Origin: Candidatus Shapirobacteria bacterium
GTDB lineage: Bacteria > Patescibacteriota > Microgenomatia > 0-14-0-10-38-17
Direction: 5' to 3'
Length of the DNA stretch: 49,650 bases
Assembly: GCA_018052565.1 (NCBI GenBank)
Contig: JAGPNC010000005.1
Location: forward strand, 1 to 49,650
Shown here: positions 1 through 12,437 of the stretch, piece after piece
Layout of the letters: each line of letters begins with the position of its first letter
Position numbering within the stretch: the stretch's first letter is position 1
The notes under the pieces: generated by a model
What the model was told of the DNA's origin: nothing
Seen by the model: the letters and a program-made list of their open reading frames with translations, nothing else
The model's database searches: none
Program-made: the position numbers and the translations under genes

Positions 1-738
1 GATTCTCAAAATTGGGTGATTATTAATCCGGCGGTTTTGGAATTAGAGCCTGGAGAACGAGACGAGGTGGTTTATACGATCACTCTTCCCCAAAAAGCCG
101 AACCGGGTGGCTTTTATTTTGCCATTACGGCGCTATTAACGGGTGAAAATGATGGTTTTGATAATGAGGGTCGGCCGGTAGGCGGAGCGGCGGTGAATTT
201 AAATGTCGCCTCGCTTCATTTAGTCAGAATTGCCGGGCCGGTTAACTTTGCCGCTCAAGTGAGCGAGTTTTCTACTCCCAAGGCTATTTACGAATACGGG
301 CCGGTGCCATTTTCGGCGCGGATTTTAAACCAAAGCAATGTTCATATTAAACCGGTGTTGGAAATTGAGGTAAAGAATACGTGGGGTCTTGCCGATGGCG
401 AACTGATCCATCTTCCCCAGCAAAATATTCTTCCGCAGGCAGGAAGAAAATACGAGGCGGAATTTGGTGGCAAGTGGCATTTTGGCCGTTACGCGGCCAC
501 TCTTAATGGCCTTTATGGCGATGGCCAAAGTCTTACTTATACTATCTTCTTTTGGATTCTTCCCTGGAAGATAATGCTGGCGGTTGTCTTGGCGCTGGCG
601 ATTATTATCCTTCTTATTATTTCCATTAAACGTCAGCTTGATGAAAAGAAACTCTTAGAGGCAGAGGTGAAACATTATAAGAAAGAAGTTTTAAAAGAAG
701 AAGGCAAGAGTGAGGAAAAAGAGCAGCTACAAGAATAA
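1..738 (+). CDS. Surface protein, DUF916/WxL-like, C-terminal membrane anchor (5' partial)
   Basis: The frame is open to the first base, so the true start lies upstream; the GTG at 16 is internal to the frame. The visible part begins with an Ig-like region of the kind seen in DUF916 (WxL-protein peptidoglycan-binding) proteins: an NPAVLELEPGE segment, a TITLP strand and the PGGFYFAI strand. A hydrophobic helix (about residues 180-205 of the visible part) follows, then a short Lys/Glu-rich cytoplasmic tail. This suggests an extracellular beta-domain anchored in the membrane. No catalytic motif is visible. Family assignment rests on motif resemblance only. Confidence 0.6.
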   Translation, partial: DSQNWVIINPAVLELEPGERDEVVYTITLPQKAEPGGFYFAITALLTGENDGFDNEGRPVGGAAVNLNVASLHLVRIAGPVNFAAQVSEFSTPKAIYEYGPVPFSARILNQSNVHIKPVLEIEVKNTWGLADGELIHLPQQNILPQAGRKYEAEFGGKWHFGRYAATLNGLYGDGQSLTYTIFFWILPWKIMLAVVLALAIIILLIISIKRQLDEKKLLEAEVKHYKKEVLKEEGKSEEKEQLQE

Positions 739-798
739 AACTTCACCAAGATCTTCGGGCAAGCGGACTTCTTTATATCTTGTATCATGTATTTTAGC

Positions 799-847
799 AT
801 TATGTCCCAGCCACTTAATACATAATGCATTGTGGCTAGGACATAAT
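799..847. repeat. Perfect-but-one inverted repeat (16-bp arms)
   Basis: Arms 799-814 and 832-847 are reverse complements apart from one C/A mismatch, with a 17-nt loop containing TTAATACATAATGC. One arm plus the loop recurs, diverged, near 1121-1147. The position 60 nt after the upstream gene would suit a transcript-end hairpin, but no T-tract follows. Confidence 0.6.
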
Positions 848-894
848 TCGTTATCCTGACCCCATGACAAATGATATTTACAACGGGGTAAATT

Positions 895-1056
895 ACCCTA
901 ATTATTCTAATCAACCGAATTTCTAAATAAATTCCAAATGCCAAAACCCCAGTCCGCCCGGGGCGGATTATTTTTAGTTGATTCTAATTTTGGGGATTGG
1001 GATTTGGGTATTCTTTAGGTCAATTAGAATAATTAGAGCAATTAGAATAATTTTTA
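895..1056. repeat. Nonamer-based palindrome, copy 1
   Basis: The right arm (1020-1056) is built of 9-nt units: AATTAGAAT, AATTAGAGC, AATTAGAAT. The left arm (895-955) carries the reverse complement, followed by CCAAAACCCC-like sequence matched by GGGATTTGGG on the right. A GC-rich hairpin (GTCCGCCCGGGGCGGATT, about 951-968) sits near the centre. The same family recurs at 37651-37802 and as one arm at 44311-44354. Confidence 0.65.
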
Positions 1057-1172
1057 ACCTTTTTTGATCCTAAATTTAATTTAAGATAACATTGAATTAA
1101 ATTTACAATAGCAGTGGGAATTATGTCCCGGGCACTTAATACATAATACAAAATACTTAATACAACTTTGGG

Positions 1173-1201
1173 TTGTCAAAAGTTTTCTCTTGTGATAGAA
1201 T
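1173..1201 (+). promoter_or_regulatory. Promoter of the ribosomal-protein cluster
   Basis: TTGTCA (1173-1178) and TAGAAT (1196-1201) are separated by 17 nt, a good sigma-70-type match. The predicted start is near 1208, about 135 nt upstream of rplC, which leaves room for the mini-ORF and hairpin at 1221-1319. It is the best promoter-like sequence upstream of the block. Confidence 0.6.
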
Positions 1202-1220
1202 TAAACCACTTTTGGAGGTA

Positions 1221-1259
1221 ATGGTTTTGAAAAAAGCAGGATTTTTCTTGCAAACTTAA
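1221..1259 (+). CDS. Possible leader peptide upstream of rplC
   Basis: GGAGG (1214-1218) precedes an ATG at 1221 by only 2 nt and an in-frame TTG at 1227 by 8 nt, the better spacing. The frame would give MVLKKAGFFLQT or MKKAGFFLQT, then TAA. It lies between the cluster promoter and a terminator-like hairpin. It has no homology I recognise, and may serve as a ribosome-loading site rather than encode a functional peptide. Confidence 0.35.
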   Translation: MVLKKAGFFLQT

Positions 1260-1292
1260 GGCTTTAATGTTAGACAGCTGGTATTCTTGGAA

Positions 1293-1319
1293 AAGAAGCC
1301 TCCGTTGGCTTCTTTTTTT
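1293..1319 (+). terminator. Terminator-like hairpin in the rplC leader (candidate attenuator)
   Basis: An 8-bp stem AAGAAGCC/GGCTTCTT (1293-1300 with 1307-1314) closes a 6-nt loop and runs into a seven-T tract. It lies inside the leader, downstream of the promoter and 25 nt before rplC, so it would attenuate rather than end an upstream gene. CCTCC in the 5' arm and loop (1299-1303) can alternatively pair with GGAGG at 1214-1218. Confidence 0.5.
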
Positions 1320-1344
1320 ATGGTTATAAGTTTAAAATAAAAAA

Positions 1345-1992
1345 ATGTTAAATGGTCTAATTGGCAAGAAAAGGGGCATGACCCAGGATTTTGACGAGGA
1401 AGGACGAGTGTTGCCCTTAACGATTATTGAGGCCGGGCCGGTGACCGTTCTGCAGATTAAAAGCAAGGAAAAAGAAGGTGCAGAGGGAATAAAGGTTGCC
1501 TTTGGTAAAGGGAAAGGAAAATATAACAAAAAACCGACTTTAGGAGAAACAAAAAAGGCAGGGCTTGAAGGGGCTCCGGCTAAAATTTGGGAGGTGCCGG
1601 GAGGGCAAGAAGGCTTGAAAGTAGGGGAAAAAATTAGCGTCGCTCAGGTTTTTGAGGAGGGGGAAAAAGTTAATATTACCGGTTTTTCTAAAGGCCGTGG
1701 TTTTAGCGGTGTGATGAAAAGGCATAGCTTTCATGGTGGCCCCACTACTCATGGCCAGTCTGATCGGCAGCGCGCGCCGGGCTCTATTGGGCAGCGAAGC
1801 ACGCCGGGACGGGTTTATCGGGGGCAGAAAATGGCAGGACATTTTGGCAACGAAAAAGTGACTGTTAAAAATTTAGAAATTTTCAAGATTGACGCGGAGA
1901 AGAATTATCTTTATGTCAAAGGAGCCGTGCCGGGAGCCATTAACGGGTGGGTGAAAATAATTAAAAGTCAAAAGTCAAAAATTAAAAGTTAA
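1345..1992 (+). CDS. rplC: 50S ribosomal protein L3
   Basis: The product binds 23S rRNA near the peptidyl-transferase centre and starts large-subunit assembly. At 215 residues it has near-normal length. The conserved loop HGGPTTHGQSD followed by GSIGQRSTPGRV (about 131-156) and KMAGHFGNE is present, including the Gln that PrmB methylates in other bacteria. It is the first gene of the block; rpsJ, which usually precedes it, is absent here. The last residues (IIKSQKSKIKS) are encoded by the start of the AT-rich heptad repeat that fills the following spacer, so the natural stop appears displaced into repeat DNA. Confidence 0.97.
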   Translation: MLNGLIGKKRGMTQDFDEEGRVLPLTIIEAGPVTVLQIKSKEKEGAEGIKVAFGKGKGKYNKKPTLGETKKAGLEGAPAKIWEVPGGQEGLKVGEKISVAQVFEEGEKVNITGFSKGRGFSGVMKRHSFHGGPTTHGQSDRQRAPGSIGQRSTPGRVYRGQKMAGHFGNEKVTVKNLEIFKIDAEKNYLYVKGAVPGAINGWVKIIKSQKSKIKS

Positions 1993-2186
1993 AATTACAA
2001 CTTAAAAGTTAAAAGTTTCTGTTTTGTAAGTTCACCTTAGGGGTGGATTATCTCCTTGCGGGAGATCTCTTAAAGGGAGATAATTTTGACTTTTAAATTT
2101 TTAAGGCAATTTAGCCATTTAGTGAGAGAACAATTTTTGTATTTTTTCTTTTTCATTTTGACTTTTGCATTTTGCATTTTGAATTA
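1961..2186. repeat. Heptad palindrome 1 (rplC-rplD spacer)
   Basis: The left arm is made of AAAAGTC/AAAAGTT/AAAATTA units and begins inside rplC; the right arm (from about 2085) is TTTTGAC/TTTTGCA-type. The centre holds a separate hairpin (2047-2055 with 2076-2084, ATTATCTCC/GGAGATAAT) enclosing GGGAGATCTC, related to the one at 14996-15027. The arms imply a long, imperfect AU-rich RNA hairpin between two cistrons. Confidence 0.75.
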
Positions 2187-2195
2187 ATAAAAAAT

Positions 2196-2924
2196 ATGTC
2201 TTTATCGGTAGACTTATACAACTATCAAGGCGAAAGGCAGGGGAAAAAGATACGCCTGTCGGAAGAGTTATTCGGGCAAGAGGCCAACAAAGTTCTTCTA
2301 GCTCAGGCGGTACGAGTTTATTTGGCTAATCAGCGCTGCGCCTTTCCTAAAGCAAAAACGCGCGCTGAGGTTGATGGCTCTGGCCGTAAAATTTATTCCC
2401 AAAAGGGAACGGGCCGGGCGCGTCATGGCGATCGTCAAGCGCCAATTTTTGTCGGTGGAGGCAAGGCGCATGGTCCGCGGGGGGCGAAAATTCGCCTCAG
2501 CTTGCCGAAAAAGATGAGAAAAAAGGCGTTAGCGGCGGCTTTGTCTGAAAAGGCAGGCAAAGGAGAGATAAAATTGGTGGCGGACATCCAGAAAATGCCG
2601 CCCAAAACTAAGATGGCAGAAGAACTACTTAAGAAAATAAATTTAGCCGCTAAAAAGATAGGTTTAGTAATGACGGGGGAAGAAAAAGAAAAAGTTGGTC
2701 GGGCCTTTAGGAATCTGGCAACAGTGGCAGTTTTTTCGCCAAACACGCTTAATCCTTATTTAATTTTAGAAAGAGAGGCCTTGGTTTTTACTCCCCAAAG
2801 CCTGGCGGTTCTGGCGGGGAAAGAGGGAGAAGAGAAAGGAGCAGCCAAAGAGAGCCAAGAAGTGAGAAACGGCGCCAGCAATGCAAAAATCAAAAGTCAA
2901 TCCGCCAGCTGGCGGACAAAATGA
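2196..2924 (+). CDS. rplD: 50S ribosomal protein L4
   Basis: The product binds 23S rRNA domain I and lines the peptide exit tunnel. The start is taken at ATG 2196 (MSLSVDLYNYQG); an in-frame TTG 24 nt upstream lies in repeat DNA and is unlikely. The tunnel loop contains the family motif QKGTGRARHG and GGGKAHGP (about residues 70-95). At 242 residues it is about 35 longer than usual, and the surplus is an Ala/Glu/Lys-rich C-terminus ending in NAKIKSQSASWRTK, encoded by the next repeat element. In E. coli L4 represses its own operon through the leader; whether that holds here is unknown. Confidence 0.95.
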   Translation: MSLSVDLYNYQGERQGKKIRLSEELFGQEANKVLLAQAVRVYLANQRCAFPKAKTRAEVDGSGRKIYSQKGTGRARHGDRQAPIFVGGGKAHGPRGAKIRLSLPKKMRKKALAAALSEKAGKGEIKLVADIQKMPPKTKMAEELLKKINLAAKKIGLVMTGEEKEKVGRAFRNLATVAVFSPNTLNPYLILEREALVFTPQSLAVLAGKEGEEKGAAKESQEVRNGASNAKIKSQSASWRTK

Positions 2925-3096
2925 AAATGTAAAATGTAAAAAGCTTAGTAACTTTTAACTAGCAACTAGTAATTCGTCATTAAAGGGAAAAGTTTCGTCT
3001 TTATTTTAATCTTAATAATTACTTTGCAAATTACGTTTATCAGCTACTGATTTTTAATTTTTGCATTTTTACTTTTCATTTTGCATTTTGAATTTC
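2884..3096. repeat. Heptad palindrome 2 (rplD-rplW spacer)
   Basis: Left-arm A-rich units start inside the rplD coding end and are interrupted by the perfect 16-bp palindrome TCCGCCAGCTGGCGGA (2901-2916). The T-rich right arm runs to about 3096, immediately before rplW. The centre holds unrelated unique sequence (about 2945-3050). Confidence 0.7.
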
Positions 3097-3100
3097 AATT

Positions 3101-3412
3101 ATGGATTTATCTTGGGTGATTAAAAAGCCATTGATTAGCGAGAAGGCAATGAGCCAGGGGAGAAACACCTATACCTTTTTGGTGGATCAAAAAGCGACGA
3201 AGGGAGAAATAAAAGAGGCGATAAAACAATTTTTTGGCAAAGACATTTTGGCAGTGCGGACGGCTAAGGAGGGTGGGGAAAAAAAATGGACTTTGGGGAA
3301 ACACCGGCGAATGATAGAAAAAGCAGGGACCAAGAAAGCTATTGTCCAACTAAAGGAGGGAGAAAGTTTTGATTTTTATGATTTTCCTAAAGAAGAGGGA
3401 GGCAAAAAATGA
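3101..3412 (+). CDS. rplW: 50S ribosomal protein L23
   Basis: The product sits at the exit of the peptide tunnel and is a docking site for trigger factor and SRP. It has 103 residues, normal for bacteria. It opens with the typical IKKPLISEKAM and contains the conserved VRTAKEGGEKKW basic loop (about 52-64). The last codons overlap rplB by 4 nt (ATGA), implying translational coupling. The ATG follows directly on repeat 2 with no clear Shine-Dalgarno sequence. Confidence 0.96.
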   Translation: MDLSWVIKKPLISEKAMSQGRNTYTFLVDQKATKGEIKEAIKQFFGKDILAVRTAKEGGEKKWTLGKHRRMIEKAGTKKAIVQLKEGESFDFYDFPKEEGGKK

Positions 3413-4164
3413 AAATTAAAAAGCAATTAACTCGGGCAACCAAAAGCAAGGCGGGACGAAGTCATGGCCGTGTGGCCGTACGTCATCAGGGTGGTGGCGA
3501 GAAACAACGCTTGCGTTTAATTGACTGGAGTCGCAGCAAAAGAGGAATAGAAGGGCAAGTAGAAGCAATTGAATATAGTCCCAAGAGGAATGCTAATGTG
3601 GCTCTTCTTCTTTACCCTGATGGAGAGCGTTGTTATATTTTGGCCACCACGGGAATGAAAGCGGGGGATAAGGTTATTGCCGGCCCTAAGGCACCTCTTA
3701 AAGAAGGCAACGCCACGCTGTTAAAAAGGATTCCGGTGGGGATGCCGATTCATAATTTAGAATTAAAGCCGGGCAAGGGAGGGCAATTAGTGCGGAGCGC
3801 CGGGGCAGTAGCTTATATCCTTTCAAAAGATAAAAAAGAGGCGCAGGTTAAACTTCCCTCGGGAGAGATAAGGAAAATTTCCTCTCTTTGTTATGCTACA
3901 ATTGGCCAAGTAGGTAATCAGGGTTTTCGCTTTAAAAAAATGAGAAAGGCGGGTCAAAATCGCCATCGGGGGGTGCGACCAGCTGTTCGTGGTGTGGCCC
4001 AGGATCCGCGTTCTCATCCCCATGGCGGGGGTGAAGGCCGTTCTGGCATTGGCATGCCTTCGCCAAAAACCCCTTGGGGCAAGAAAACTTTGGGCAAAAA
4101 GACAAGAAAACCAAAAAAATATAGCGATAAAGATATTATTAAGAGAAAAAAAGGGGTAAAATAG
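3409..4164 (+). CDS. rplB: 50S ribosomal protein L2
   Basis: The product is needed for subunit association and supports peptidyl transfer. The conserved HPHGGGEGR segment (about residues 203-211), whose histidines are near the active centre in E. coli L2, is intact, and the RNA-binding VRHQGGGEKQR motif is at about 24-34. At 251 residues it is roughly 25 shorter than typical L2; the missing part is the N-terminal extension (it starts MKIKKQLTRATKSKAGRSHG). The start overlaps the rplW stop by 4 nt. Confidence 0.97.
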   Translation: MKIKKQLTRATKSKAGRSHGRVAVRHQGGGEKQRLRLIDWSRSKRGIEGQVEAIEYSPKRNANVALLLYPDGERCYILATTGMKAGDKVIAGPKAPLKEGNATLLKRIPVGMPIHNLELKPGKGGQLVRSAGAVAYILSKDKKEAQVKLPSGEIRKISSLCYATIGQVGNQGFRFKKMRKAGQNRHRGVRPAVRGVAQDPRSHPHGGGEGRSGIGMPSPKTPWGKKTLGKKTRKPKKYSDKDIIKRKKGVK

Positions 4165-4170
4165 GATAAT

Positions 4171-4287
4171 AATTCAAAATTCAAAAGTCAAAATTCAAAA
4201 TTGCAATTAAAAAGTTAAAAGCTTTTTTTGCCTTACTTTTGAATTTTAACTTGTACTTTTGACTTTTAAATTTTAACTTTTAACTTT
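4171..4287. repeat. Heptad palindrome 3 (rplB-rpsS spacer)
   Basis: Left arm AATTC-AAAATTC-AAAAGTC-AAAATTC to AAAAGTT, a T-run centre, then TTTTGAA-TTTTAAC-TTGTAC-TTTTGAC-TTTTAAA-TTTTAAC units. It occupies nearly the whole spacer and is one of the cleanest copies. Confidence 0.8.
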
Positions 4288-4294
4288 ATTTATC

Positions 4295-4567
4295 GTGTCT
4301 CGATCAACTAAGAAAGGACCATTTATTGAGGAGCGGCTTTTGAAAAAAATTAAAGCCGGTCAAGAGGAGCCCATAAAAACTTGGGCGCGATCTTCGCAGA
4401 TCCCGCCGGAATTTGTGGGCCATCGTTTTGCGGTTCACAACGGCCGGAATTTTGTAGAAGTTTTTGTGGTGGAAGAAATGGTAGGCCATCGTTTGGGCGA
4501 GTTTTCTCCTACTCGTACTTTTAGAGGTCATGGGCGGGTAGTGAAACGAACAATGGAAAAAACTTAA
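4295..4567 (+). CDS. rpsS: 30S ribosomal protein S19
   Basis: The product binds the 3' domain of 16S rRNA with S13, near the A site. It is 90 residues, standard length, starting SRSTKKGPF and containing the conserved [20 protein letters not shown] run (about 48-67). The start is a GTG at 4295, only a few bases after the end of a repeat arm and without a clear Shine-Dalgarno sequence. rplV follows 16 nt downstream. Confidence 0.96.
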
Positions 4568-4583
4568 AAATTTTAAGAATTTT

Positions 4584-4958
4584 ATGGCGGAAGCGAAATT
4601 AATTAAAACAAAAGCTAAATTCTTACCTATATCGGCGAAAAAGGTGCGGCCATTAACAAAATTAGTGGTCGGTAAGTCGCCAGAAGAAGCGTTGATCATT
4701 TTAGCTCATTTACCCCAACGGGGGACAAAATTTTTGGAAAAATTGATCGTCTCTGCCCAGGCGGAAGCGGAAAATAACTTCGGCCTGAAGAAAGAAAATT
4801 TACTGATAAATTCGCTGATAGTCGGTGATGGCCCAAAACTTAAGCGGATTGATAACGCTCATGGGGCTCGTTTTTCTTCGGGGGTAATCCGAAAAAGGAT
4901 GAGCCATTTGGAGGTTGTTCTTAAAGAGAAGGAAGAAGAGAAAAAACCAAGATTATAA
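4584..4958 (+). CDS. rplV: 50S ribosomal protein L22
   Basis: The product contributes a beta-hairpin to the exit tunnel. It has 124 residues. Recognisable elements are KFLPISAKKVRPLTKLVVGK at the N-terminus, the AEAENN segment (about residues 60-65) and the hairpin tip region with the conserved KRIDNAHGARF (about 92-102), followed by a basic strand (VIRKRMSHLEVVL). A charged tail (KEKEEEKKPRL) completes it. Confidence 0.95.
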   Translation: MAEAKLIKTKAKFLPISAKKVRPLTKLVVGKSPEEALIILAHLPQRGTKFLEKLIVSAQAEAENNFGLKKENLLINSLIVGDGPKLKRIDNAHGARFSSGVIRKRMSHLEVVLKEKEEEKKPRL

Positions 4959-5020
4959 TTTATTATTTTATCCAGCTATAATTAAAAAGTTCCTGGCTGA
5001 GTTATAGATATTAATAAGTT

Positions 5021-5138
5021 AATTCAAAAGTTAAAATTCAAAATTCAAAATTTCAAGTCAAAAGCTAAAAGTTTTTTTTGTTTTAATTTTTAATTTTAGC
5101 TTGTAATTTTGACTTTTAACTTTTGACTTTTAACTTTT
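5021..5138. repeat. Heptad palindrome 4 (rplV-rpsC spacer)
   Basis: Left arm AAAAGTT-AAAATTC-AAAATTC-AAAATTT to AAAAGTT, a T-run centre, and a right arm of TTTTAA/TTTTGAC/TTTTAAC units ending 6 nt before the rpsC ATG. The right arm would therefore lie in the rpsC ribosome-binding region; no Shine-Dalgarno sequence is visible. Confidence 0.8.
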
Positions 5139-5144
5139 TCTATT

Positions 5145-5780
5145 ATGGGACATAAAATTAATCCGATTGCTTACCGTTTGGGAGTTAATATCGACTGGCC
5201 TTCTCGGTGGGCGGTAAGCCAAAAGAAACAATACCAAGAGTTTTTGTTGGAGGACGCCAAGCTAAGGCGCTTTTTGGAAAAAAGGCTGGCATTGGCAGGC
5301 TTAATCGCGGTCAATATCGAACGATCTTTTAATAAGATGGAAATTACCCTGCAAACAAGTCGGCCCGGCGTAGTTATCGGCCGAGGGGGGAAGAGCTTGG
5401 AGGCGCTTAAGAAAGAGTTGTGTCAAATAGTGAGCATTGAGGAGCCGCAAAAAAATTTAGAAATCAGAATTGAGGAAGTGGAGAAACCGGAGCTTTCTGC
5501 TTTATTCGTGGCTCAAAAAATTGCCGATCAGCTAAAACGTCGCCTCCCCTACCGTCAGGTGGCGCAGAGAGAAATGGAGCGAGTGATGGAAGCGGGGGCG
5601 CAGGGGATAAAAGTGAGGTTAGCGGGGAGAATTGGCGGTGCCAATATTGCTCGACAGGAAAAATTTTCCCGGGGGAAAGTGCCCACAAGCACAATTCGGG
5701 CCAATATTGATTACGCAGAATTCCCCGCGCTAACTAGCAAGGGCTATGTGGGGGTGAAGGTTTGGATTAATCGGGATTAA
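5145..5780 (+). CDS. rpsC: 30S ribosomal protein S3
   Basis: The product lines the mRNA entry channel. It has 211 residues, starting MGHKINPIAYRLGV as is typical. A type II KH domain is marked by VVIGRGGKSLEALKKEL (about residues 76-92), and the C-terminal domain carries GAQGIKVRLAGRIGGANIAR (about 149-168) and the STIRANIDYA strand. No unusual insertion is seen. Confidence 0.97.
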   Translation: MGHKINPIAYRLGVNIDWPSRWAVSQKKQYQEFLLEDAKLRRFLEKRLALAGLIAVNIERSFNKMEITLQTSRPGVVIGRGGKSLEALKKELCQIVSIEEPQKNLEIRIEEVEKPELSALFVAQKIADQLKRRLPYRQVAQREMERVMEAGAQGIKVRLAGRIGGANIARQEKFSRGKVPTSTIRANIDYAEFPALTSKGYVGVKVWINRD

Positions 5781-5817
5781 AAATTTAAATAGGTCTAATA
5801 GGACCTATGAGACTTAT

Positions 5818-6228
5818 ATGGTTGTTCCTAAAAAGTTCAAATACCGCAAACAATTTCGGCCGAAAATTAAGGGAAAAGCAAGTCGAGGTTATCGGTTAGC
5901 CTTTGGCGATTTTGGCCTTAAGGCGCAGGAGGGCGGCTGGCTTGAGGAGAAACAATTAGAAGCCGCCCGGCAGGCGATTATTCACCAGTCTAAAAGGGAG
6001 GGGAAGGTGTGGATTAGGGTAGTTAATGATCGTCCCGTGACCGCCAAAGGAGCGGGGGTGCGTATGGGGAAAGGGAAGGGAGACATCAAGGGTTATGTGG
6101 CTTCAGTTGAGCCGGGGAGGATTATTTTTGAAGTGGGAGGCTTACCGTCAGAATTAGCGCAAAAAGCCTTACGTCTTGCCGGTCATAAGCTGCCTTTTAA
6201 GACTAAAATTATTGCTAAAAGCGAATGA
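5818..6228 (+). CDS. rplP: 50S ribosomal protein L16
   Basis: The product organises the A-site region of the large subunit. It has 136 residues, with VPKKFKYRKQFRPKIKGKA at the N-terminus, GDFGLKAQEGGWL, and the conserved RMGKGKGDIKGYVASVEPGR (about 81-100). The stop overlaps the rpmC start by 4 nt (ATGA), so the two are probably coupled. Confidence 0.97.
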   Translation: MVVPKKFKYRKQFRPKIKGKASRGYRLAFGDFGLKAQEGGWLEEKQLEAARQAIIHQSKREGKVWIRVVNDRPVTAKGAGVRMGKGKGDIKGYVASVEPGRIIFEVGGLPSELAQKALRLAGHKLPFKTKIIAKSE

Positions 6229-6434
6229 AAAAAGAGGAAAAACAAAAATTAGCCAGCCTTGGTAAAGAAGAGCTTTTAAAGGAGATAGAAAAGGAAAAGG
6301 GCGCCTTGGTGAAATTAAAAACAGATAAGTCGTTGGGAAGATTGAAAAATGTGCATGAAATAGGCAAAAAACGTGCTAAAATAGCTTTTATGCTTAATTT
6401 GATCAAGCAAAAGGAGGCCTATGAGCAAAGGTAG
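6225..6434 (+). CDS. rpmC: 50S ribosomal protein L29
   Basis: This small helical-hairpin protein sits near the tunnel exit beside L23. It has 69 residues. The pattern ELLKEIEKEKGALVKLKTDKSLGRLKNVHEIGKKRAKIAFMLN matches the two-helix fold, with the usual KNVHEIGKKRAKI turn. It overlaps rplP by 4 nt and rpsQ by 14 nt, so it lies in a tightly coupled trio. Confidence 0.93.
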   Translation: MKKEEKQKLASLGKEELLKEIEKEKGALVKLKTDKSLGRLKNVHEIGKKRAKIAFMLNLIKQKEAYEQR

Positions 6435-6723
6435 AGTTTTTAACGGCACAGTAGTTGCCGTTTCTGGACCAAAGACAATTACAGTGGTTGTCGAAGATTT
6501 CTACCGCCATCCGCTTTATAAAAAGACTTTAAGGCGGCGGAAAAAGTATTTGGTTCATGCAGAGAGAGAAGTGGCGGTGGGAGAAAAAGTGAAAATTCGT
6601 GAAAGCCGCCCCTTAAGCAAGCGGAAAAGGTTTGTTTTGGAAGGGGCGACAAAAGAGGATAATTTGTCAACAAAAAAAGAAGGTGATTTTAGCGAAAATG
6701 ACAGCCGTTCTTCTTCTCTTTAA
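6421..6723 (+). CDS. rpsQ: 30S ribosomal protein S17
   Basis: This OB-fold protein is a primary binder of the 16S rRNA 5' domain. The core (residues 1-75) carries FNGTVVAVSGPKTITVVVE and VGEKVKIRESRPLSKRKRF. A 25-residue Ser/Asp/Glu-rich tail (from about residue 77) is longer than usual and has no recognisable function. An AAAGGAGG-like sequence (AAAAGGAGGC, 6409-6418) inside rpmC precedes the ATG, one of the better Shine-Dalgarno matches in the block. Confidence 0.94.
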   Translation: MSKGRVFNGTVVAVSGPKTITVVVEDFYRHPLYKKTLRRRKKYLVHAEREVAVGEKVKIRESRPLSKRKRFVLEGATKEDNLSTKKEGDFSENDSRSSSL

Positions 6724-6724
6724 T

Positions 6725-6846
6725 AATTCAAAATTCAAAATTTAAAATTTAAAATTTCAAGTCAAAAGTTAAAAGTTTTTTTGTTTCACTTTTGAATTTT
6801 TACTTGCACTTTTGACTTTTAAATTTTAACTTTTGACTTTTAATTT
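6725..6846. repeat. Heptad palindrome 5 (rpsQ-rplN spacer)
   Basis: The left arm reads AATTC-AAAATTC-AAAATTT-AAAATTT, then AAGTC-AAAAGTT-AAAAGTT; the right arm mirrors it with TTTTGAA, TTTTTAC, TTGCAC, TTTTGAC, TTTTAAA, TTTTAAC, TTTTGAC. It starts two bases after the rpsQ stop codon. Confidence 0.82.
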
Positions 6847-6883
6847 AAAGAGTCTACCGTTTATTAATTTAGTCGCTTAATCT

Positions 6884-7252
6884 ATGTTACAATTACGATC
6901 AATTTTAGTGGTTGCTGATAACAGCGGCGCGAAAAGGCTTAAACTGGTTAACGTACCTGGTTATTCTAAAAAACACATCGCTTCGGTGGGCGAAATTATT
7001 GATGCGGTGGTGTTTGAAGCTTTCCCCGACGCATCCCTTAAAAAGGGCGACAAGGTAAAAGCGGTGATTATACGGACGAGGAAAGAAAAGAGGCGCCCCG
7101 ATGGTTCTTATATCCGTTTTTCGGATAACGCCGCGGTGGTAATTAATTCTCAAAAGGCGCCGGTGGGTACGCGTATTTTCGGGCCCATTGCCATGGAGGT
7201 GAAGGAAAAAGGTTTTAATAAAATTGCCTCTTTGGCAAAAGAGGTGGTATAA
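6884..7252 (+). CDS. rplN: 50S ribosomal protein L14
   Basis: The product forms an intersubunit bridge with 16S rRNA helix 44. It has exactly the canonical 122 residues. It begins [19 protein letters not shown], with [21 protein letters not shown] (about 55-75) and [10 protein letters not shown], and ends in the [20 protein letters not shown] block. The sequence is fully ordinary. Confidence 0.98.
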
Positions 7253-7324
7253 AAACGATAGGCGGGGATAAACTACCATATACTATTCTGGTTAGCTTAG
7301 GACTAAAAAGGTCGCAACCTATCA

Positions 7325-7418
7325 ATTTAAAATTTAAAATTCAAAATGCAAAATTACAATTTAAAAGTTAAAAGTTTTGTTTCACTTTTGAATTTTTACT
7401 TGTACTTTTGACTTTTAG
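7325..7418. repeat. Heptad palindrome 6 (rplN-rplX spacer)
   Basis: A shorter copy: AAAATTT-AAAATTC-AAAATGC-AAAATTA on the left, AAAAGTT near the centre, then TTTTGAA-TTTTTAC-TTGTAC-TTTTGAC. Unlike most copies it ends about 60 nt before the next gene. Confidence 0.75.
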
Positions 7419-7478
7419 CTATTCTGATCTTTCCCTATGTCAGCAAAGATGACCATAGCGATAATTTAATTTTTAATT

Positions 7479-7784
7479 ATGAAGATCAAAAAGGGTGATA
7501 AGGTAAAAATTATTTTAGGCAAAGATCGCGGCCGGGAAGGCCAAGTGGAAAAAGTCTTTCCTAAGGGGAGGAAAGTTTTGGTGGCCGGATTAAATCTTTA
7601 CAAGAAACATGTTCGGCCAAAAAAAGAAGGAGAAAAAGGGGGCGTGGTAGAAATCAGCCGCCCCTTAGACGTGGCCAAGGTGGCTTTGGTTTGTCCTAAA
7701 TGCGGCCAACCAACACGAGTAGGCTATCAGATTTCGGGAAAAGAAAAGTTAAGGATTTGCCGTAAATGCAAAGAGATTATTTAA
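7479..7784 (+). CDS. rplX: 50S ribosomal protein L24, zinc-ribbon form
   Basis: This is an assembly-initiator protein of the large subunit. A KOW motif (KKGDKVKIILGKDRGREGQVEKV, with GKDRG) occupies residues 3-25. The C-terminus carries four cysteines in two pairs, CPKCGQ (about 68-73) and CRKC (about 94-97), predicted to bind zinc. It has 101 residues. rplE follows 10 nt after the stop. Confidence 0.95.
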   Translation: MKIKKGDKVKIILGKDRGREGQVEKVFPKGRKVLVAGLNLYKKHVRPKKEGEKGGVVEISRPLDVAKVALVCPKCGQPTRVGYQISGKEKLRICRKCKEII

Positions 7785-7794
7785 AAAAACTAGA

Positions 7795-8349
7795 ATGTTT
7801 GGCTTAAAAGAAAAATACCAAAAAGAAATTATCCCCAAGATGAAGGAAGAATTTGGCTTAGGTAATTCTTTGGCCGTGCCAAAGGTGGTTAAGGTGGTCG
7901 TGGGCACGGGGATAGCGAAGGAAAGAAAAGACGAAAAGGCGGCTGAGGAGGCAAAGAAGGCCCTGGAGGCCATTACCGGCCAGCGACCTAAACTTTGTCG
8001 GGCTAAGAAAGCGATTTCTTCTTATAGTTTAAGAGAAGGAGAGCCAATTGGTTTTCAGGTGACATTACGGGGAGAAAGGATGTATCATTTCTTGGAGAAG
8101 CTGTTTGTGATCGTCTTGCCGCAGGTTAAAGATTTTCACGGCTTGTCGTTGAGGGGATTTGACCAAAATGGCAACTATAATTTGGGGTTGGCGGATAATT
8201 TGGTTTTCCCGGAGATTAATTATGATAAAATAGACCGACCGCGCGGTGTGGGGATAACGATTGTAACTAACGCCAACGACGTGGAAAAATCAAAACGTCT
8301 TTTGGCTCTTTTGGGAGCGCCATTTGAGAAAGAAGAGAAGAAACAATAA
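7795..8349 (+). CDS. rplE: 50S ribosomal protein L5
   Basis: The product binds 5S rRNA in the central protuberance and contacts P-site tRNA. It has 184 residues. Family landmarks are VPKVVKVVVGTGIAKE, GQRPKLCRAKKAISSYSLREGEPIG and the C-terminal GLADNLVFPEINYDKIDRPRG (about 130-150). Length and motifs are standard. Confidence 0.97.
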   Translation: MFGLKEKYQKEIIPKMKEEFGLGNSLAVPKVVKVVVGTGIAKERKDEKAAEEAKKALEAITGQRPKLCRAKKAISSYSLREGEPIGFQVTLRGERMYHFLEKLFVIVLPQVKDFHGLSLRGFDQNGNYNLGLADNLVFPEINYDKIDRPRGVGITIVTNANDVEKSKRLLALLGAPFEKEEKKQ

Positions 8350-8403
8350 TTTTTATTTGTGAACAAATTAACAACTTAATTATTTAGCAATTGAATTTTT
8401 TCT

Positions 8404-8589
8404 ATGGCGAGAAAAACAAAGATTGTTCGTGAAAGTAAAAAATTAAAATATTCAGGCCGTTATCGAAATCGTTGCCGTCTTTGCGGCCGACCGCGGGCTT
8501 ATATTCGTTATTTCGGCCTTTGCCGGCTTTGTTTCCGCAAGCTGGCCGATAAAGGAGAAATCGTGGGGGTCAAAAAAGCCTCATGGTGA
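8404..8589 (+). CDS. rpsZ: 30S ribosomal protein S14, type Z (zinc form)
   Basis: This 61-residue short S14 has the four-cysteine zinc site CRLCGR (residues 24-29) and CRLC (about 39-42), and ends GVKKASW as is typical. It binds the 3' domain of 16S rRNA. The zinc-independent long form is not present in the window. The ATG is preceded by AT-rich sequence without a Shine-Dalgarno match. Confidence 0.96.
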
Positions 8590-8663
8590 GAGGGCGAGAG
8601 GAGTTGAGTTTGTTATTGGGGCAAGCTAAAGTTAAAACTAAATTGTGGTTTATACTTATTAGT

Positions 8664-8823
8664 AATTCAAAATGCAAAAATCAAAAATCAAAATTTTTAA
8701 TTTTAACTGCCTACCGATGCGGGGCTGGCGGACAAAATGAAAATGTAAAGAATTCTTTTTTGAGCTTTAATAATTTTTGAATTTTAATTTTTCATTTTGC
8801 ATTTTGAATTTCGCATTTTGTTT
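8664..8823. repeat. Heptad palindrome 7 (rpsZ-rpsH spacer)
   Basis: The left arm (AATTC-AAAATGC-AAAAATC-AAAAATC-AAAATTT) is interrupted by a worn GC module (GGGGCTGGCGGACAAAATG) that matches part of repeat 2; the T-rich right arm is TTTTGAA-TTTTAAT-TTTTCAT-TTTGCAT-TTTGAAT. Next to it (8831-8854) lies a minus-oriented copy of the TCCTGACGAAAGTC element seen at 42491-42513. Confidence 0.7.
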
Positions 8824-8893
8824 TCCAATTGATCCCGACTTTCGTCAGGACAACGAATTATGTTCCAGTCATTTTTAATAGTTTAAAAAAATC

Positions 8894-9283
8894 ATGGATC
8901 CTATTGCTGATATGCTTTCAACCATTAAGAATAGCTACGCAGCGGGTAAAAAAAAGGTGGTACTCACCTACTCCCGACCGAAGCTTTTACTGGGGCAAAT
9001 TTTAGCAAGAGAAGGTTTTTTAGCTAAGGTAGAGGAGAAAGAAGATGAGAAAGGTAAGAAAGAAATCGTTTTAAGCCTTTCTTATCGGGGTAAAAATCCG
9101 GCTCTTTCGGGATCTGAAAGACTTTCCAGGCCCGGCCGTCGTCTTTACGCAAGAAAAGATGATCTTGGTAAAATTAGCCGACGATTAGGGACGGTAATTA
9201 TTTCTACTCCCATGGGGCTATTGACCGCTAAAGAGGCCTTAGAGAAAAATCAGGGAGGAGAGTTAATTTGTCGTGTTTGGTAA
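8894..9283 (+). CDS. rpsH: 30S ribosomal protein S8
   Basis: The product binds the central domain of 16S rRNA. It has 129 residues. It starts MDPIADMLSTIKNSY and contains the conserved RPGRRLYARKDDLGKI (about residues 80-95), then TVIISTPMGLLTAKEALEKNQGGELICRVW to the C-terminus. This is the normal family arrangement. Confidence 0.97.
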   Translation: MDPIADMLSTIKNSYAAGKKKVVLTYSRPKLLLGQILAREGFLAKVEEKEDEKGKKEIVLSLSYRGKNPALSGSERLSRPGRRLYARKDDLGKISRRLGTVIISTPMGLLTAKEALEKNQGGELICRVW

Positions 9284-9296
9284 TTCTTAGTTTTTT

Positions 9297-9854
9297 ATGG
9301 GAAAAATAGGCAAAAAACCAGTGATTATTCCTGAAGGAGTGATGGTGGAAATTGAGGCAAGGAAGGTGAGAGTGAAGGGAGAAAAGGGGACGCTTGCCCT
9401 CAACTTGCCGGTAGGGTTAAAAGTGGTTCGCCAAGAAAATCAGCTTTTGGTAGAAAAAGAGAGCGAGGGGAAGGCACTAGATGCCTTGCAGGGGACAATA
9501 AGGCAACTTTTGGCTAACATGGTTGCCGGCCAGACAAAGGAATGGGAGAAAAAACTAAAGATTGTGGGCATAGGCTATGGAGCGAGTTTGGTAGGCAATG
9601 AATTGGTGCTTAATTTAGGCTTGGCAAACGAGGTGAGGGTGGCGGCGCCAGAAGGAATCCGTTTCCAAGTAGAGAAAGAGATTGTTTCTGTTTTGGGGGC
9701 AGATAAAGAAAAAGTGGGGCAAGTGGCCGCTTACCTGAGGAAGTTACGGCCGGCTGATCCCTACAAGGGTAAGGGAATTCGCTATGAGAACGAAGAAATT
9801 AAACTTAAAGCCGGAAAGACGGCTAAAGTAGGTGAAGGAGCTGCCGCAAAATAA
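9297..9854 (+). CDS. rplF: 50S ribosomal protein L6
   Basis: The product binds 23S rRNA near the sarcin-ricin loop and the factor-binding site. It has 185 residues: MGKIGKKPVIIPEGV, a first domain with QGTIRQLLANMVAG (about 62-75) and a second domain ending LRKLRPADPYKGKGIRYENEEIKLKAGKTAK, the family signature. It starts 13 nt after rpsH. Confidence 0.97.
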   Translation: MGKIGKKPVIIPEGVMVEIEARKVRVKGEKGTLALNLPVGLKVVRQENQLLVEKESEGKALDALQGTIRQLLANMVAGQTKEWEKKLKIVGIGYGASLVGNELVLNLGLANEVRVAAPEGIRFQVEKEIVSVLGADKEKVGQVAAYLRKLRPADPYKGKGIRYENEEIKLKAGKTAKVGEGAAAK

Positions 9855-9871
9855 AATTAAATAAAGAGAAA

Positions 9872-10231
9872 ATGACTAAGCAGGTTAGAATTAATCAAAG
9901 GAAAGAGGAGCAAAGGCAACGGCGAACGCGTTTAAAGATTAAGAGTGTGTCGGACTTGCCGCGGCTGTCGGTTTTTCGTTCCTCCCGCTATATTAGCGCT
10001 CAGATTATTGATGACCAAAAGGGGAAGACCTTAATTGGAGTGAATGAAAAAATGCTTCAAGACAAAAAGGGAACTAAAACTGAGCGGGCTTATGCTCTGG
10101 GGGAGTATTTAGCCCAGCGGGCAAAGGACAAGAAGATAAAAAAAGTGGTTTTTGACCGCGGTGCTTACGCTTACCACGGCCGGGTGAAAGCCTTGGCGGA
10201 AGGGGCGCGCAAGGGCGGTTTGGTTTTTTAA
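9872..10231 (+). CDS. rplR: 50S ribosomal protein L18
   Basis: The product binds 5S rRNA with L5. It has 119 residues: a basic N-terminus (RRTRLKIKSVSDLPRLSVFRSSRYISAQI) and the conserved C-terminal VVFDRGAYAYHGRVKALAEGARKGGL (about 92-118). It lies between rplF and rpsE with short spacers (17 and 8 nt). Confidence 0.97.
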   Translation: MTKQVRINQRKEEQRQRRTRLKIKSVSDLPRLSVFRSSRYISAQIIDDQKGKTLIGVNEKMLQDKKGTKTERAYALGEYLAQRAKDKKIKKVVFDRGAYAYHGRVKALAEGARKGGLVF

Positions 10232-10239
10232 TTATAAAA

Positions 10240-10710
10240 ATGAAGCAAGAAGAAAAAAAACTGACTACTAAAAGCGAAGAGGAACTCTTTGTTCAGGTAG
10301 TAGAGATTAAGCGAGTTTCGAAAAAAACCGAAGGGGGTAACCAAATTTCTTTTACGGCCTTGGTGGTGGCAGGAGACCGCAATGGCAATGTTGGCTTAGC
10401 TTTAGGCAAGGGGCCAGATGTGGCTTCGGCAGTAGCCAAGGGAAAAAGAAAAGCCGCCAAATCAATGGTTGAGGTGGCCAGACGGGGGACAACTATTCCT
10501 CACGATATTAAAAAAAAGGTGGGTTCAGCGCAAGTTTTCTTAAAGCCGGCGCCAGCGGGGAGTGGTCTTATTGCCGCCCAAACCTTAAAGCCATTGCTTG
10601 AAGCGGCGGGAATAAAGGATATTTCTGTCAAAATTTTAGGGGCCAATAACAAACGAAACAATCTTTTGGCTCTTCTTGAAGCGCTTAAAGAACTTAAAGT
10701 CTATGCTTAA
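10240..10710 (+). CDS. rpsE: 30S ribosomal protein S5
   Basis: The product affects mRNA entry and decoding fidelity. It has 156 residues, with the N-terminal dsRBD-like half (VVEIKRVSKKTEGGNQISFTALVVAGD, GNVGLALGKGPDVASAVAKG) and the C-terminal half with KPAPAGSGLIAAQTLKPLLEAAGIKDI. The 3' end overlaps rplO by 8 nt. rpmD (L30), which normally sits between rpsE and rplO, is absent, as reported for CPR bacteria. Confidence 0.97.
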   Translation: MKQEEKKLTTKSEEELFVQVVEIKRVSKKTEGGNQISFTALVVAGDRNGNVGLALGKGPDVASAVAKGKRKAAKSMVEVARRGTTIPHDIKKKVGSAQVFLKPAPAGSGLIAAQTLKPLLEAAGIKDISVKILGANNKRNNLLALLEALKELKVYA

Positions 10711-11146
10711 CAGCTTACCAAAAACTACTGATAAAAAGAAAAAAAGGATTGGCAGGGGTTATGGATCAGGAAAGGGTGGCCATACCGTGGGGCGCGGGCA
10801 AAAAGGGCAAAAGTCGCGCCACGAGCCTTTTTTCCTTTTTGAAGGTAAAAAAACCCAAAAATCACTCTTGCGGCGCATTCCTCTCTTGCGGGGCAAGGAT
10901 AAGTTTAAATCGCGGCAGGAAAAAGCAATCGTTATTAATTTAGAACAGTTGAATAATTTCTTGCCTCATGAGAAAGTTTCTTTAGAGACTTTAGTAAAGA
11001 AGGGCTTGATAAAGGAGGATGAGGCGCTACGGGGAGTGAAAATTTTGGGTAGGGGGGAAATTAAAAAGCCTCTCGAGGTGGTTCTTCCCTGCTCTGGGGG
11101 GGCGCGGGAAAAAATTGAAAAAGCAGGAGGCAAGGTTTATGTTTAA
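10703..11146 (+). CDS. rplO: 50S ribosomal protein L15
   Basis: This late-assembly protein of the large subunit has 147 residues from the chosen ATG at 10703 (MLNSLPKTTDKKKKRIGRGYGSGKGG). Upstream in-frame codons inside rpsE (from 10676) would add nine residues not typical of the family. The N-terminal glycine-rich RGYGSGKGGHTVGRGQKGQKSR segment threads into rRNA. It overlaps secY by 8 nt and carries the secY Shine-Dalgarno sequence. Confidence 0.95.
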   Translation: MLNSLPKTTDKKKKRIGRGYGSGKGGHTVGRGQKGQKSRHEPFFLFEGKKTQKSLLRRIPLLRGKDKFKSRQEKAIVINLEQLNNFLPHEKVSLETLVKKGLIKEDEALRGVKILGRGEIKKPLEVVLPCSGGAREKIEKAGGKVYV

Positions 11147-12437
11147 AAAACTTCTTAACGTTTTTTCTTCGTGTTGGCGAATAAAAGATATTAGAAAAAG
11201 ATTGCTTTCAACCTTGGGATTTTTGGTCGGCTTGCGGTTTTTGGCCCATATTCCCCTGCCAGGGGTTAACCGTGAGATTTTAAAAACAATTTTCTCCGGC
11301 AACCAATTTTTGGGGCTTTTAAATATTTTTTCGGGGGGGACATTGGCTAATTTTTCTATTACCGCGCTTGGCTTAGCTCCTTATATTAACGCTTCTATTA
11401 TTTTTCAGCTTTTAAGTTTTATGTTCCCTTATTTTGAGCGTTTAACTCGTGAGGGAGAGGCAGGCCGGCAAAAGATAGAACGTTATACAAAAATAGCCTC
11501 GCTTCCCCTGGCAATTTTTCAGTCTCTGGGAATGTATGCTCTTTTTAAAAACCAGGGGGTAATTGGCAGTTTGCCGCCGGTGTTACTTATCTCGTTAGTA
11601 ACCTCTTTGACAGCGGGCACTTTTATTTTGATTTGGTTGGGTAATTTAATCAGCGAATACGGGATTGGTAACGGCATTTCTCTTTTGATTTTTGCGGGTA
11701 TCATTAGCCAGTTGCCCCAAGATTTTGCCCAAACGATAGCGGTTGCTTCCCAAGGAGGGAATTGGCTTAATTTTTTTCTTTTTTTAGTTCTTTCGTTGGC
11801 AGTGATTGGGGGAATTATTTTTGTCAATGAAGGAGTGCGGCGCCTTTTGGTCCATTATGCCAGACGCGTTCAGGGAAGAAAAATGTATGGCGGGGGAGTG
11901 GCTTATTTGCCCCTTCGCCTTAATCAGGCAGGGGTGATTCCCATTATTTTTGCTGTTTCTGTAGTTTTGCTTCCCTCAATGATTGGGCAGTTTTTGGGAC
12001 AGGTGCAAAACGAAGGAGTGAGAAATTTTGCCCTAGGATTAGCCGCTGTTTTTCAGCCAGAGGGTGTTACTTATAACCTTGTCTACTTTATTTTGGTGGT
12101 TGCCTTTACTTTCTTTTACACGATGATTGTTTTTGATCCCGAGAAAATTGCCAAAACGATCCAGAAAAATGGCGGCTTTATTCCCGGCGTGCGGCCAGGG
12201 AAGGCAACGGCCAATTATCTTGGGTATCTTTCCTTAAGGCTTACTTTACCGGGGGCAATTTTTTTAGGGCTGGTGGCGATTTTGCCAGTTTTAATTAAAA
12301 AATTGACGGGTATTGGCACGATTGCTTTAGGGGGGACGGGAACACTAATTGTTGTCTCTGTGGTGTTGGAAACGGCAAAAACATTAGAAGGCATGATGGA
12401 AGCCAGAGGCTATGAAAAGTTTTTAGAAAATTACTAA
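11139..12437 (+). CDS. secY: Protein translocase subunit SecY
   Basis: The product is the channel-forming subunit of the Sec translocon in the cytoplasmic membrane. From ATG 11139, preceded by AGGAGG at 11125-11130 (8-nt spacing, a strong site), it has 432 residues with about ten hydrophobic segments. Landmarks are the FSGGTLANFSITALGLAPYI region, SEYGIGNGISLLIFAGI, the RRVQGRKMYGGG cytoplasmic loop and the C-terminal GTGTLIVVSVVLETAKTLEG. The frame extends 24 nt further upstream to a less likely start. Neither secE nor secG is in the window. Confidence 0.97.
   Translation: MFKKLLNVFSSCWRIKDIRKRLLSTLGFLVGLRFLAHIPLPGVNREILKTIFSGNQFLGLLNIFSGGTLANFSITALGLAPYINASIIFQLLSFMFPYFERLTREGEAGRQKIERYTKIASLPLAIFQSLGMYALFKNQGVIGSLPPVLLISLVTSLTAGTFILIWLGNLISEYGIGNGISLLIFAGIISQLPQDFAQTIAVASQGGNWLNFFLFLVLSLAVIGGIIFVNEGVRRLLVHYARRVQGRKMYGGGVAYLPLRLNQAGVIPIIFAVSVVLLPSMIGQFLGQVQNEGVRNFALGLAAVFQPEGVTYNLVYFILVVAFTFFYTMIVFDPEKIAKTIQKNGGFIPGVRPGKATANYLGYLSLRLTLPGAIFLGLVAILPVLIKKLTGIGTIALGGTGTLIVVSVVLETAKTLEGMMEARGYEKFLENY

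Follow-up and report, generated by a model that had tools for sequence, protein, structure and literature searches.

Leaderless polycysteine short ORFs of mycobacteria are reportedly attenuators of operons. The leaders described here may resemble them in that the operon would be controlled by a short ORF located right at, or close to, the transcript's 5′ end. The difference lies in the cysteine codons of the mycobacterial ORFs: the leaders of the class studied here are without polycysteine codons.

A leader-peptide transcription attenuator has been described for ilvB1 of M. tuberculosis (available text of PMC13236596). In attenuators of the trp/his/ilv type, as outlined in the same text, there is a short leader ORF, an antiterminator competes with an intrinsic terminator, and masking by the ribosome decides the outcome (PMC13236596). 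The locus described here appears alike in these respects, but the controlled genes encode ribosomal proteins (r-proteins), there is no run of codons for a single amino acid, and the predicted masking point in the family of the analysed genome is the start of the ORF, not its stop.

In the known cases, r-protein operons are for the most part controlled by free r-proteins that bind to their own mRNA (PMC10931766, available part). According to the same part, the E. coli S10 leader, regulated by L4, has an intrinsic terminator in front of the same gene cluster, but that leader is long and structured and is the target of a free r-protein (PMC10931766), whereas the leader described here contains a short ORF. 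Moreover, the site is here before rplC and not before rpsJ, and the family of the analysed genome has no such conserved structure. The rplJL attenuator of B. subtilis is likewise a case of terminator/antiterminator control of an r-protein operon, but there a protein complex, L10(L12)4, stabilizes an anti-antiterminator (PMC10931766, same part). r-Protein leaders such as that of rpsL are variable, and attenuators of the same gene often swap sensing systems, as the available section of PMC2965389 has it; this fits the family-to-family change among rplC leaders reported below. A literature search found no report of such an rplC leader.

RESULTS

Elements of the leader in the window

The stretch of DNA analysed here (the window, 49,650 nt) carries an r-protein gene cluster on the + strand. 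The first gene of the controlled operon, rplC (L3), occupies positions 1345–1992 and is followed, in this order, by the genes of L4, L23, L2, S19, L22, S3 and L16 (2196–6228, + strand). Gene order and strand suggest that rplC and the downstream r-protein genes are on one transcript. Positions 780–1160 are AT-rich intergenic DNA with repeated pieces, e.g. CACTTAATACATAAT and ATGTCCC; a GC-rich hairpin lies at 951–969.

All leader elements described below are on the + strand. A promoter was predicted at 1173–1201, with a −35 box TTGTCA (1173–1178), a 17-nt spacer and an extended −10 box TAGAAT (1196–1201). With 10 of 12 consensus matches and a TG ahead of the −10 box it was the top row in a scan of positions 1–12000. 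The scan returned 27 promoter-like sites where 18.8 were expected; such sites are not rare, so the scan alone is weak evidence for the promoter. From the usual promoter spacing, transcription would start around 1208.

The leader ORF (1212–1259) has three in-frame starts, TTG 1212, ATG 1221 and TTG 1227, which give 15, 12 and 10 codons, respectively, and ends with the TAA stop codon at 1257–1259. The TTG at 1212, which the sequence-only reading did not mention, is in the context TTG GAG GTA ATG, 10 nt past the −10 box. It overlaps TGGAGGT (1213–1219), a Shine-Dalgarno-like site and the first antiterminator candidate, which can pair with GCCTCCG (1298–1304); the core motifs are GGAGG at 1214–1218 and CCTCC at 1299–1303. 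The second antiterminator candidate, AGGCTTT (1259–1265), which overlaps the end of the stop codon by one base, can pair with GAAGCCT (1295–1301).

The intrinsic terminator hairpin (1289–1318) starts 32 nt past the ORF stop and ends 26 nt before rplC. It has 12 pairs (1289–1300 with 1307–1318), a loop at 1301–1306 and a predicted energy of −15.4 kcal/mol (fold of 1285–1322). Its core (1293–1314) is followed by TTTTT, and the T-run (1312–1319) lies partly inside the 3′ arm. The hairpin was absent from the output of a ready-made terminator scan, apparently because the long stem consumes part of the T-run. The leader as a whole folded only moderately better than its shuffles (z −1.32). The promoter, GGAGG, 10–12-codon ORF, hairpin and CCTCC had all been placed by the sequence-only reading, and re-examination found these coordinates correct.

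Terminators upstream of rplC in the class

Of the 233 class genomes, 226 had an rplC match. Their small size and gene content suggest that these are bacteria of the Candidate Phyla Radiation. The first leader set comprised 146 of the 150 listed rows; G023, G044, G060 and G204 were omitted because of partial rplC matches or two internal stops. Thirty leaders from poorly sampled, more divergent families, G023 included, were added; their rplC starts followed from a rule, which seems to have misplaced at least that of G070.

Under a strict rule an intrinsic terminator was present within 200 nt upstream of rplC in 124 of the 146 leaders and in 29 of 34 families. Dinucleotide shuffles scored in 34 of 1460 cases (2.3%), the region from −400 to −200 in 9 of 142. 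The median hairpin end in class leaders with a strict terminator was 20 nt upstream of the rplC start. The added leaders had a strict terminator in 17 of 30 cases, which brings the pooled sets to 141 of 176 leaders and 36 of 43 families. Seven families (f10, f14, f27, f28, f34, f36 and f44) were without a terminator under the strict rule; rpsJ ended within about 35 nt of rplC in the printed leaders of f14, f28, f34 and f36. In f7 two of nine leaders passed the strict rule, and a longer stem was visible by eye in others. Two other versions of the search were given up: an early script, which allowed one loop per hairpin only, found 88 of 146 leaders and 5 of 730 shuffles and was replaced, and a permissive version, which found 136 of 146 leaders but also 328 of 584 shuffles, had no discrimination and was dropped.

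Could the hairpin merely terminate an upstream transcription unit, with rplC transcribed from elsewhere? Inter-operon terminators are common, and rpsJ is upstream of rplC in many relatives. However, a promoter precedes the hairpin in the window, the 26 nt to rplC leave little room for another one, and shuffles rarely produce such a hairpin (2.3%). We regard this explanation as extremely unlikely. The assembly of the window genome (G000, rated 96% complete) had no rpsJ (S10), 16S or 23S match; in G001 and G002 rpsJ was found upstream of rplC on the same contig.

Outside the class, a terminator was found in 17 of 61 genomes drawn from the better-scoring rplC rows, and other leader types occur there. 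By eye, one type, AACGGGGT...AGTCC...GGAAACT, recurs in L172, L176, L186, L188 and L191; in L195, L211, L220, L227 and L234, CTTGGTG...CACCAAG is followed by a short T-run. A scan of genome contigs gave three distant rplC loci.

The leader ORF

The ORF was assessed in 86 leaders with a good predicted promoter 40–155 nt upstream of the hairpin. In 76 of them (17 of 19 families) an ATG or GTG 7–17 nt past the −10 box opened an ORF with a stop before the hairpin, compared with 17.9% of shuffles; the start codon counted alone was present in 77 of 86. The ORFs had 2–17 codons, 68 of the 76 having 5–12, and in 55 of 58 leaders outside f3 the stop preceded the hairpin by 20–40 nt (31% of shuffles). 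Together with the 124 terminators in 146 leaders, this conserved layout strongly supports the suggestion of the sequence-only reading that the operon is subject to attenuation ahead of rplC.

The family of the window, represented in the collection by the window, G001 and G002, does not follow the rule of an ATG/GTG start close to the 5′ end (0/3). Its ORF sits further in, downstream of GGAGG, at a spacing of 2 nt in the window (8 nt to TTG 1227), 11 nt in G001 and 8 nt in G002. The distance from the ORF stop to the hairpin is 32, 38 and 31 nt, respectively. The three leader peptides are not alike.

The encoded peptides gave no indication of regulatory codons. The window peptide MVLKKAGFFLQT has no run of codons for one amino acid; among the 76 class leader peptides no residue exceeded 10.6%, cysteine accounting for 0.9% of residues, and no stall motif or peptide was shared across families. 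Likeness was seen within families. Three of four f29 peptides were MSKLLINSLVT, MSKLLIVSMIT and MSKLLMTSLVT; the f17 peptides MARQTLEVIVAT, MAKQTEVILAT and MTKRMEVFLAT differ by whole codons, other f17 peptides being unlike them. In f8 the conserved CCAAAAGTCTCGGATGAG is sometimes out of frame with the ORF, thus it is probably conserved as RNA.

The sequence-only reading had proposed conservation in relatives as a check. The layout of terminator and ORF was indeed kept in relatives of the class, but the leader sequence was not: BLAST of positions 1160–1350 against 59 genomes, its own included, returned the self match alone. The window leader had no Rfam match (the only matches in the window were two tRNAs), and among 20 loci three weak Rfam matches were found, all far under the gathering scores. 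As judged from these comparisons, what is conserved is the layout and not the sequence.

GGAGG in the leaders

GGAGG occurred in 35 of 121 leaders (6.4% of shuffles). A start codon 3–10 nt past GGAGG was found in 13 of 36 cases, which is the chance level (34%), and the motif was at first read as a Shine-Dalgarno sequence without a start codon. This reading was revised, since GGAGG is often inside NTG-GAG-G: in 20 of 176 leaders (13 families) an ORF opens with this motif downstream of a −10-like box, in the window as TTG GAG GTA. Shine-Dalgarno-like motifs were present at any candidate start in 9 of 47 window ORFs picked by length (GGAGG in two) and at 18 of 145 rplC starts; against this rarity the leader GGAGG stands out. 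The 16S tail contained CACCTCC in all five class genomes checked. The assemblies of the window, G001 and G002 had no rRNA match, so the anti-Shine-Dalgarno tails are those of other class genomes only. In L153, L154, L155 and L159 the rRNA matches exceeded the models, with 23S spans of 3442–4173 bases and one 16S of 2269 bases, suggesting rRNA genes with insertions.

Ribosome-binding GGAGG sequences of the Stab-SD type stabilize the 5′ end of mRNA. The frequency of GGAGG, with following start codons at chance level, would suit such a stabilizer, next to a hairpin acting as a constitutive partial terminator that sets the level of the operon. It would not account for GGAGG lying so often within the ORF start, for the positioned ORF and ORF stop, or for a complementarity to the hairpin that exceeds the swapped controls (see below), and we consider it very unlikely.

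Predicted pairing of GGAGG with the terminator

In the family of the window the GGAGG strand can form the helices UGGAGGU:GCCUCCG, AAGGAGGC:GCCUCUUU and AGGAGGC:GUCUCCU. Compared with the hairpins of other families, these ranked 0.016, 0.057 and 0.061 (combined p 0.006). In simulated folding of the nascent RNA, 4.85, 4.99 and 4.99 of the five GGAGG bases were paired to the hairpin arm or loop, a value that was equalled by 5.0, 5.0 and 0.0% of 121 foreign hairpins. The GGAGG:terminator pairing proposed in the sequence-only reading was supported in all three members of this family, too few for a covariation analysis, but it did not extend to the class: 31 leaders from 13 families showed no general excess (mean rank 0.433, p 0.46; f3 and f8 leaders with GGAGG were excluded before counting), and the rank test ruled out such pairing as a class rule. 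CCUCC was present in 6 of the 31 hairpins of GGAGG leaders and in 1 of 93 others (p 0.0009).

In nascent folds of other families, GGAGG was predicted to be captured in G006 (f5, 4.98), G030 (f26, 4.96) and G079 (f18, 4.47), and partially in G061 (f33, 3.19). It was not captured in three of the four f18 leaders tested, G127 (2.02), G232 (0.35) and G175 (0.00). These folding models support GGAGG pairing in the family of the window and in some other families, not as a rule of the class.

In f18 (e.g. L069, L077, L078 and L112) we also noticed by eye that CGTGG, GAGG or GGTGAT at the ORF start appears to complement CCACG, CCTC or ATCACC just past the stop; the whole micro-ORF may be inside a hairpin.

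The stretch between ORF stop and hairpin

Swapping hairpins between whole leaders produced a weak shift in duplex ranks (medians around 0.30, 0.5 expected). When contiguous helices were counted by zone, the complementarity was traced to the 40 nt directly upstream of the hairpin, which match their own arm and loop better than foreign hairpins (mean family rank 0.334, p 4.5e-4). The zones 40–80 and 80–120 nt before the hairpin showed no enrichment (ranks 0.516 and 0.465). A profile around the ORF stop (61 leaders, 17 families) gave a moderate signal: low ranks were over-represented near the stop, and mean ranks were lower at +12 to +24. Judging from these ranks, outside the family of the window the stretch from ORF stop to hairpin tends to pair with the terminator. 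In the window itself AGGCTTT (1259–1265) and GAAGCCT (1295–1301) had ranks of 0.05 and 0.03.

An illustration is provided by f17, in which eight of 14 leaders, picked by eye, have the last codons and the stop in a motif (CTACATAG and variants) that can pair with the terminator arm or loop over 7–10 bases in six leaders and four bases in two. One position of this pairing is occupied by T-A, C-G or T-G.

In leaders of f6 and its neighbours (e.g. L083, L133, L243, L248, L256 and L262) an upstream CAGATTGG or CGGATTGG faces CCAATCTG in the terminator loop (by eye); the upstream strand is a possible antiterminator.

The f3 leaders (e.g. L021, L028, L037 and L103) have a conserved structured RNA, TCAGTAGATCGCGCGTC...GATACGGCGA...TACTGAG, between a 5–7-codon ORF and the terminator. 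RNAalifold predicted 25 pairs in 19 leaders, 11 of them with two-sided changes. On this predicted structure, the element may bind a ligand or an r-protein.

Such an element would speak for an autogenous attenuator, in which L4, L3 or another product of the operon binds the leader and promotes the terminator, the ORF being secondary. The S10 operon of E. coli, attenuated by L4 according to the available part of PMC10931766, is a precedent. Set against this are the three leaders of the window's family, which have no conserved element in common, the absence of any sequence match in relatives or of any Rfam match, and the fixed position of the ORF, left unexplained by a protein-binding leader. Autogenous control of this kind seems to us unlikely.

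Effect of masking on the predicted folds

The effect of an initiating ribosome was mimicked by masking the first 29 nt (1208–1236); the RNAs, truncated and with their start assumed, were folded at equilibrium. In the window, masking raised the terminator pairs from 3.26 to 6.74 when the RNA ended at 1313. With the hairpin complete, G001 went from 1.98 to 6.32 of 7 pairs and G002 from 0.15 to 8.94 of 10. In these predicted folds masking of GGAGG restores the terminator in all three family members, in agreement with the sequence-only reading, in which the terminator could form if ribosomes occupy GGAGG.

Masking the stop region alone gave 1.81 pairs at 1313 in the window (free RNA 3.26), 0.15 in G002 and 3.97 in G001. 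Masking both regions was about equal to masking the start alone. Since the stop mask was unhelpful in the window and G002 and of partial help in G001, this family lends little support to the part of the model that concerns the stop codon, and folding did not support a ribosome at that codon as the trigger here. The stop-masking folds place the mechanism nearer the start of the ORF.

In every masked state of the window the finished hairpin was the stable form by 1316–1320; thus a switch would have to operate while the RNA is being transcribed. For G001 and G002, the GGAGG capture held at equilibrium too, with the hairpin complete. The AGGCTTT pairing of the window formed mainly when 1208–1236 was masked, and then occupied the arm to about 1309.

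The same parts might work with the opposite sign or respond to another signal: if translation of the leader slowed or stalled because of a drug or starvation, termination would change, and the leader would sense translation stress and not ribosome supply. There are leader ORFs that respond to inhibited translation, e.g. ermC (available section of PMC2965389), and in the masking folds a ribosome paused on GGAGG would mimic an initiating one. However, no stall motif or common peptide was found across families, and GGAGG capture means that occupancy would favour termination, so a stall would reduce r-protein synthesis. We regard a stress sensor as distinctly improbable.

DISCUSSION

We lean towards transcription attenuation of the rplC operon by a leader ORF that has no regulatory codons and on which ribosomes favour termination, as a rather probable though by no means secure explanation. 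On sequence comparison, attenuation before rplC is well supported; the layout and its positions are conserved across the class, and complementarity exceeds that of swapped controls. The antiterminator/terminator switch is a prediction of the folding models. Translation of the leader ORF and the sign and signal of control are what we infer from these elements.

In this mechanism RNA polymerase, on its way to the rplC (S10-type) operon, would transcribe a short ORF followed by an intrinsic terminator. In the nascent RNA an upstream strand would first capture the 5′ arm and loop of the terminator, delaying or preventing the hairpin and favouring readthrough. In the family of the window this strand would be the GGAGG region at the ORF start, from which an initiating ribosome would free the terminator, and AGGCTTT at the ORF stop could serve as a fallback in the window. 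An occupied leader would thus lead to termination and an unoccupied one to readthrough. The outcome would be negative feedback from available ribosomes onto r-protein synthesis, ribosome supply being presumably the simplest signal.

A broader reading is that the whole class controls its main r-protein operon by reading ribosome occupancy: a micro-ORF that lacks regulatory codons and sits right at, or close to, the transcript's 5′ end would serve as a gauge of translation capacity. A ribosome on the leader would release the captured terminator, in some families by covering GGAGG at the ORF start and in others by covering a strand that lies at the stop or downstream of it. We treat this as a serious candidate, while stopping short of calling it probable.

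The layout yields sharp, testable predictions. If the proposed mechanism is true, r-protein synthesis in these bacteria would be subject to feedback by the ribosomes themselves and not by a free r-protein. A leader that reads occupancy would give a physical form to the old idea of ribosome feedback, in lineages that are hard to culture.
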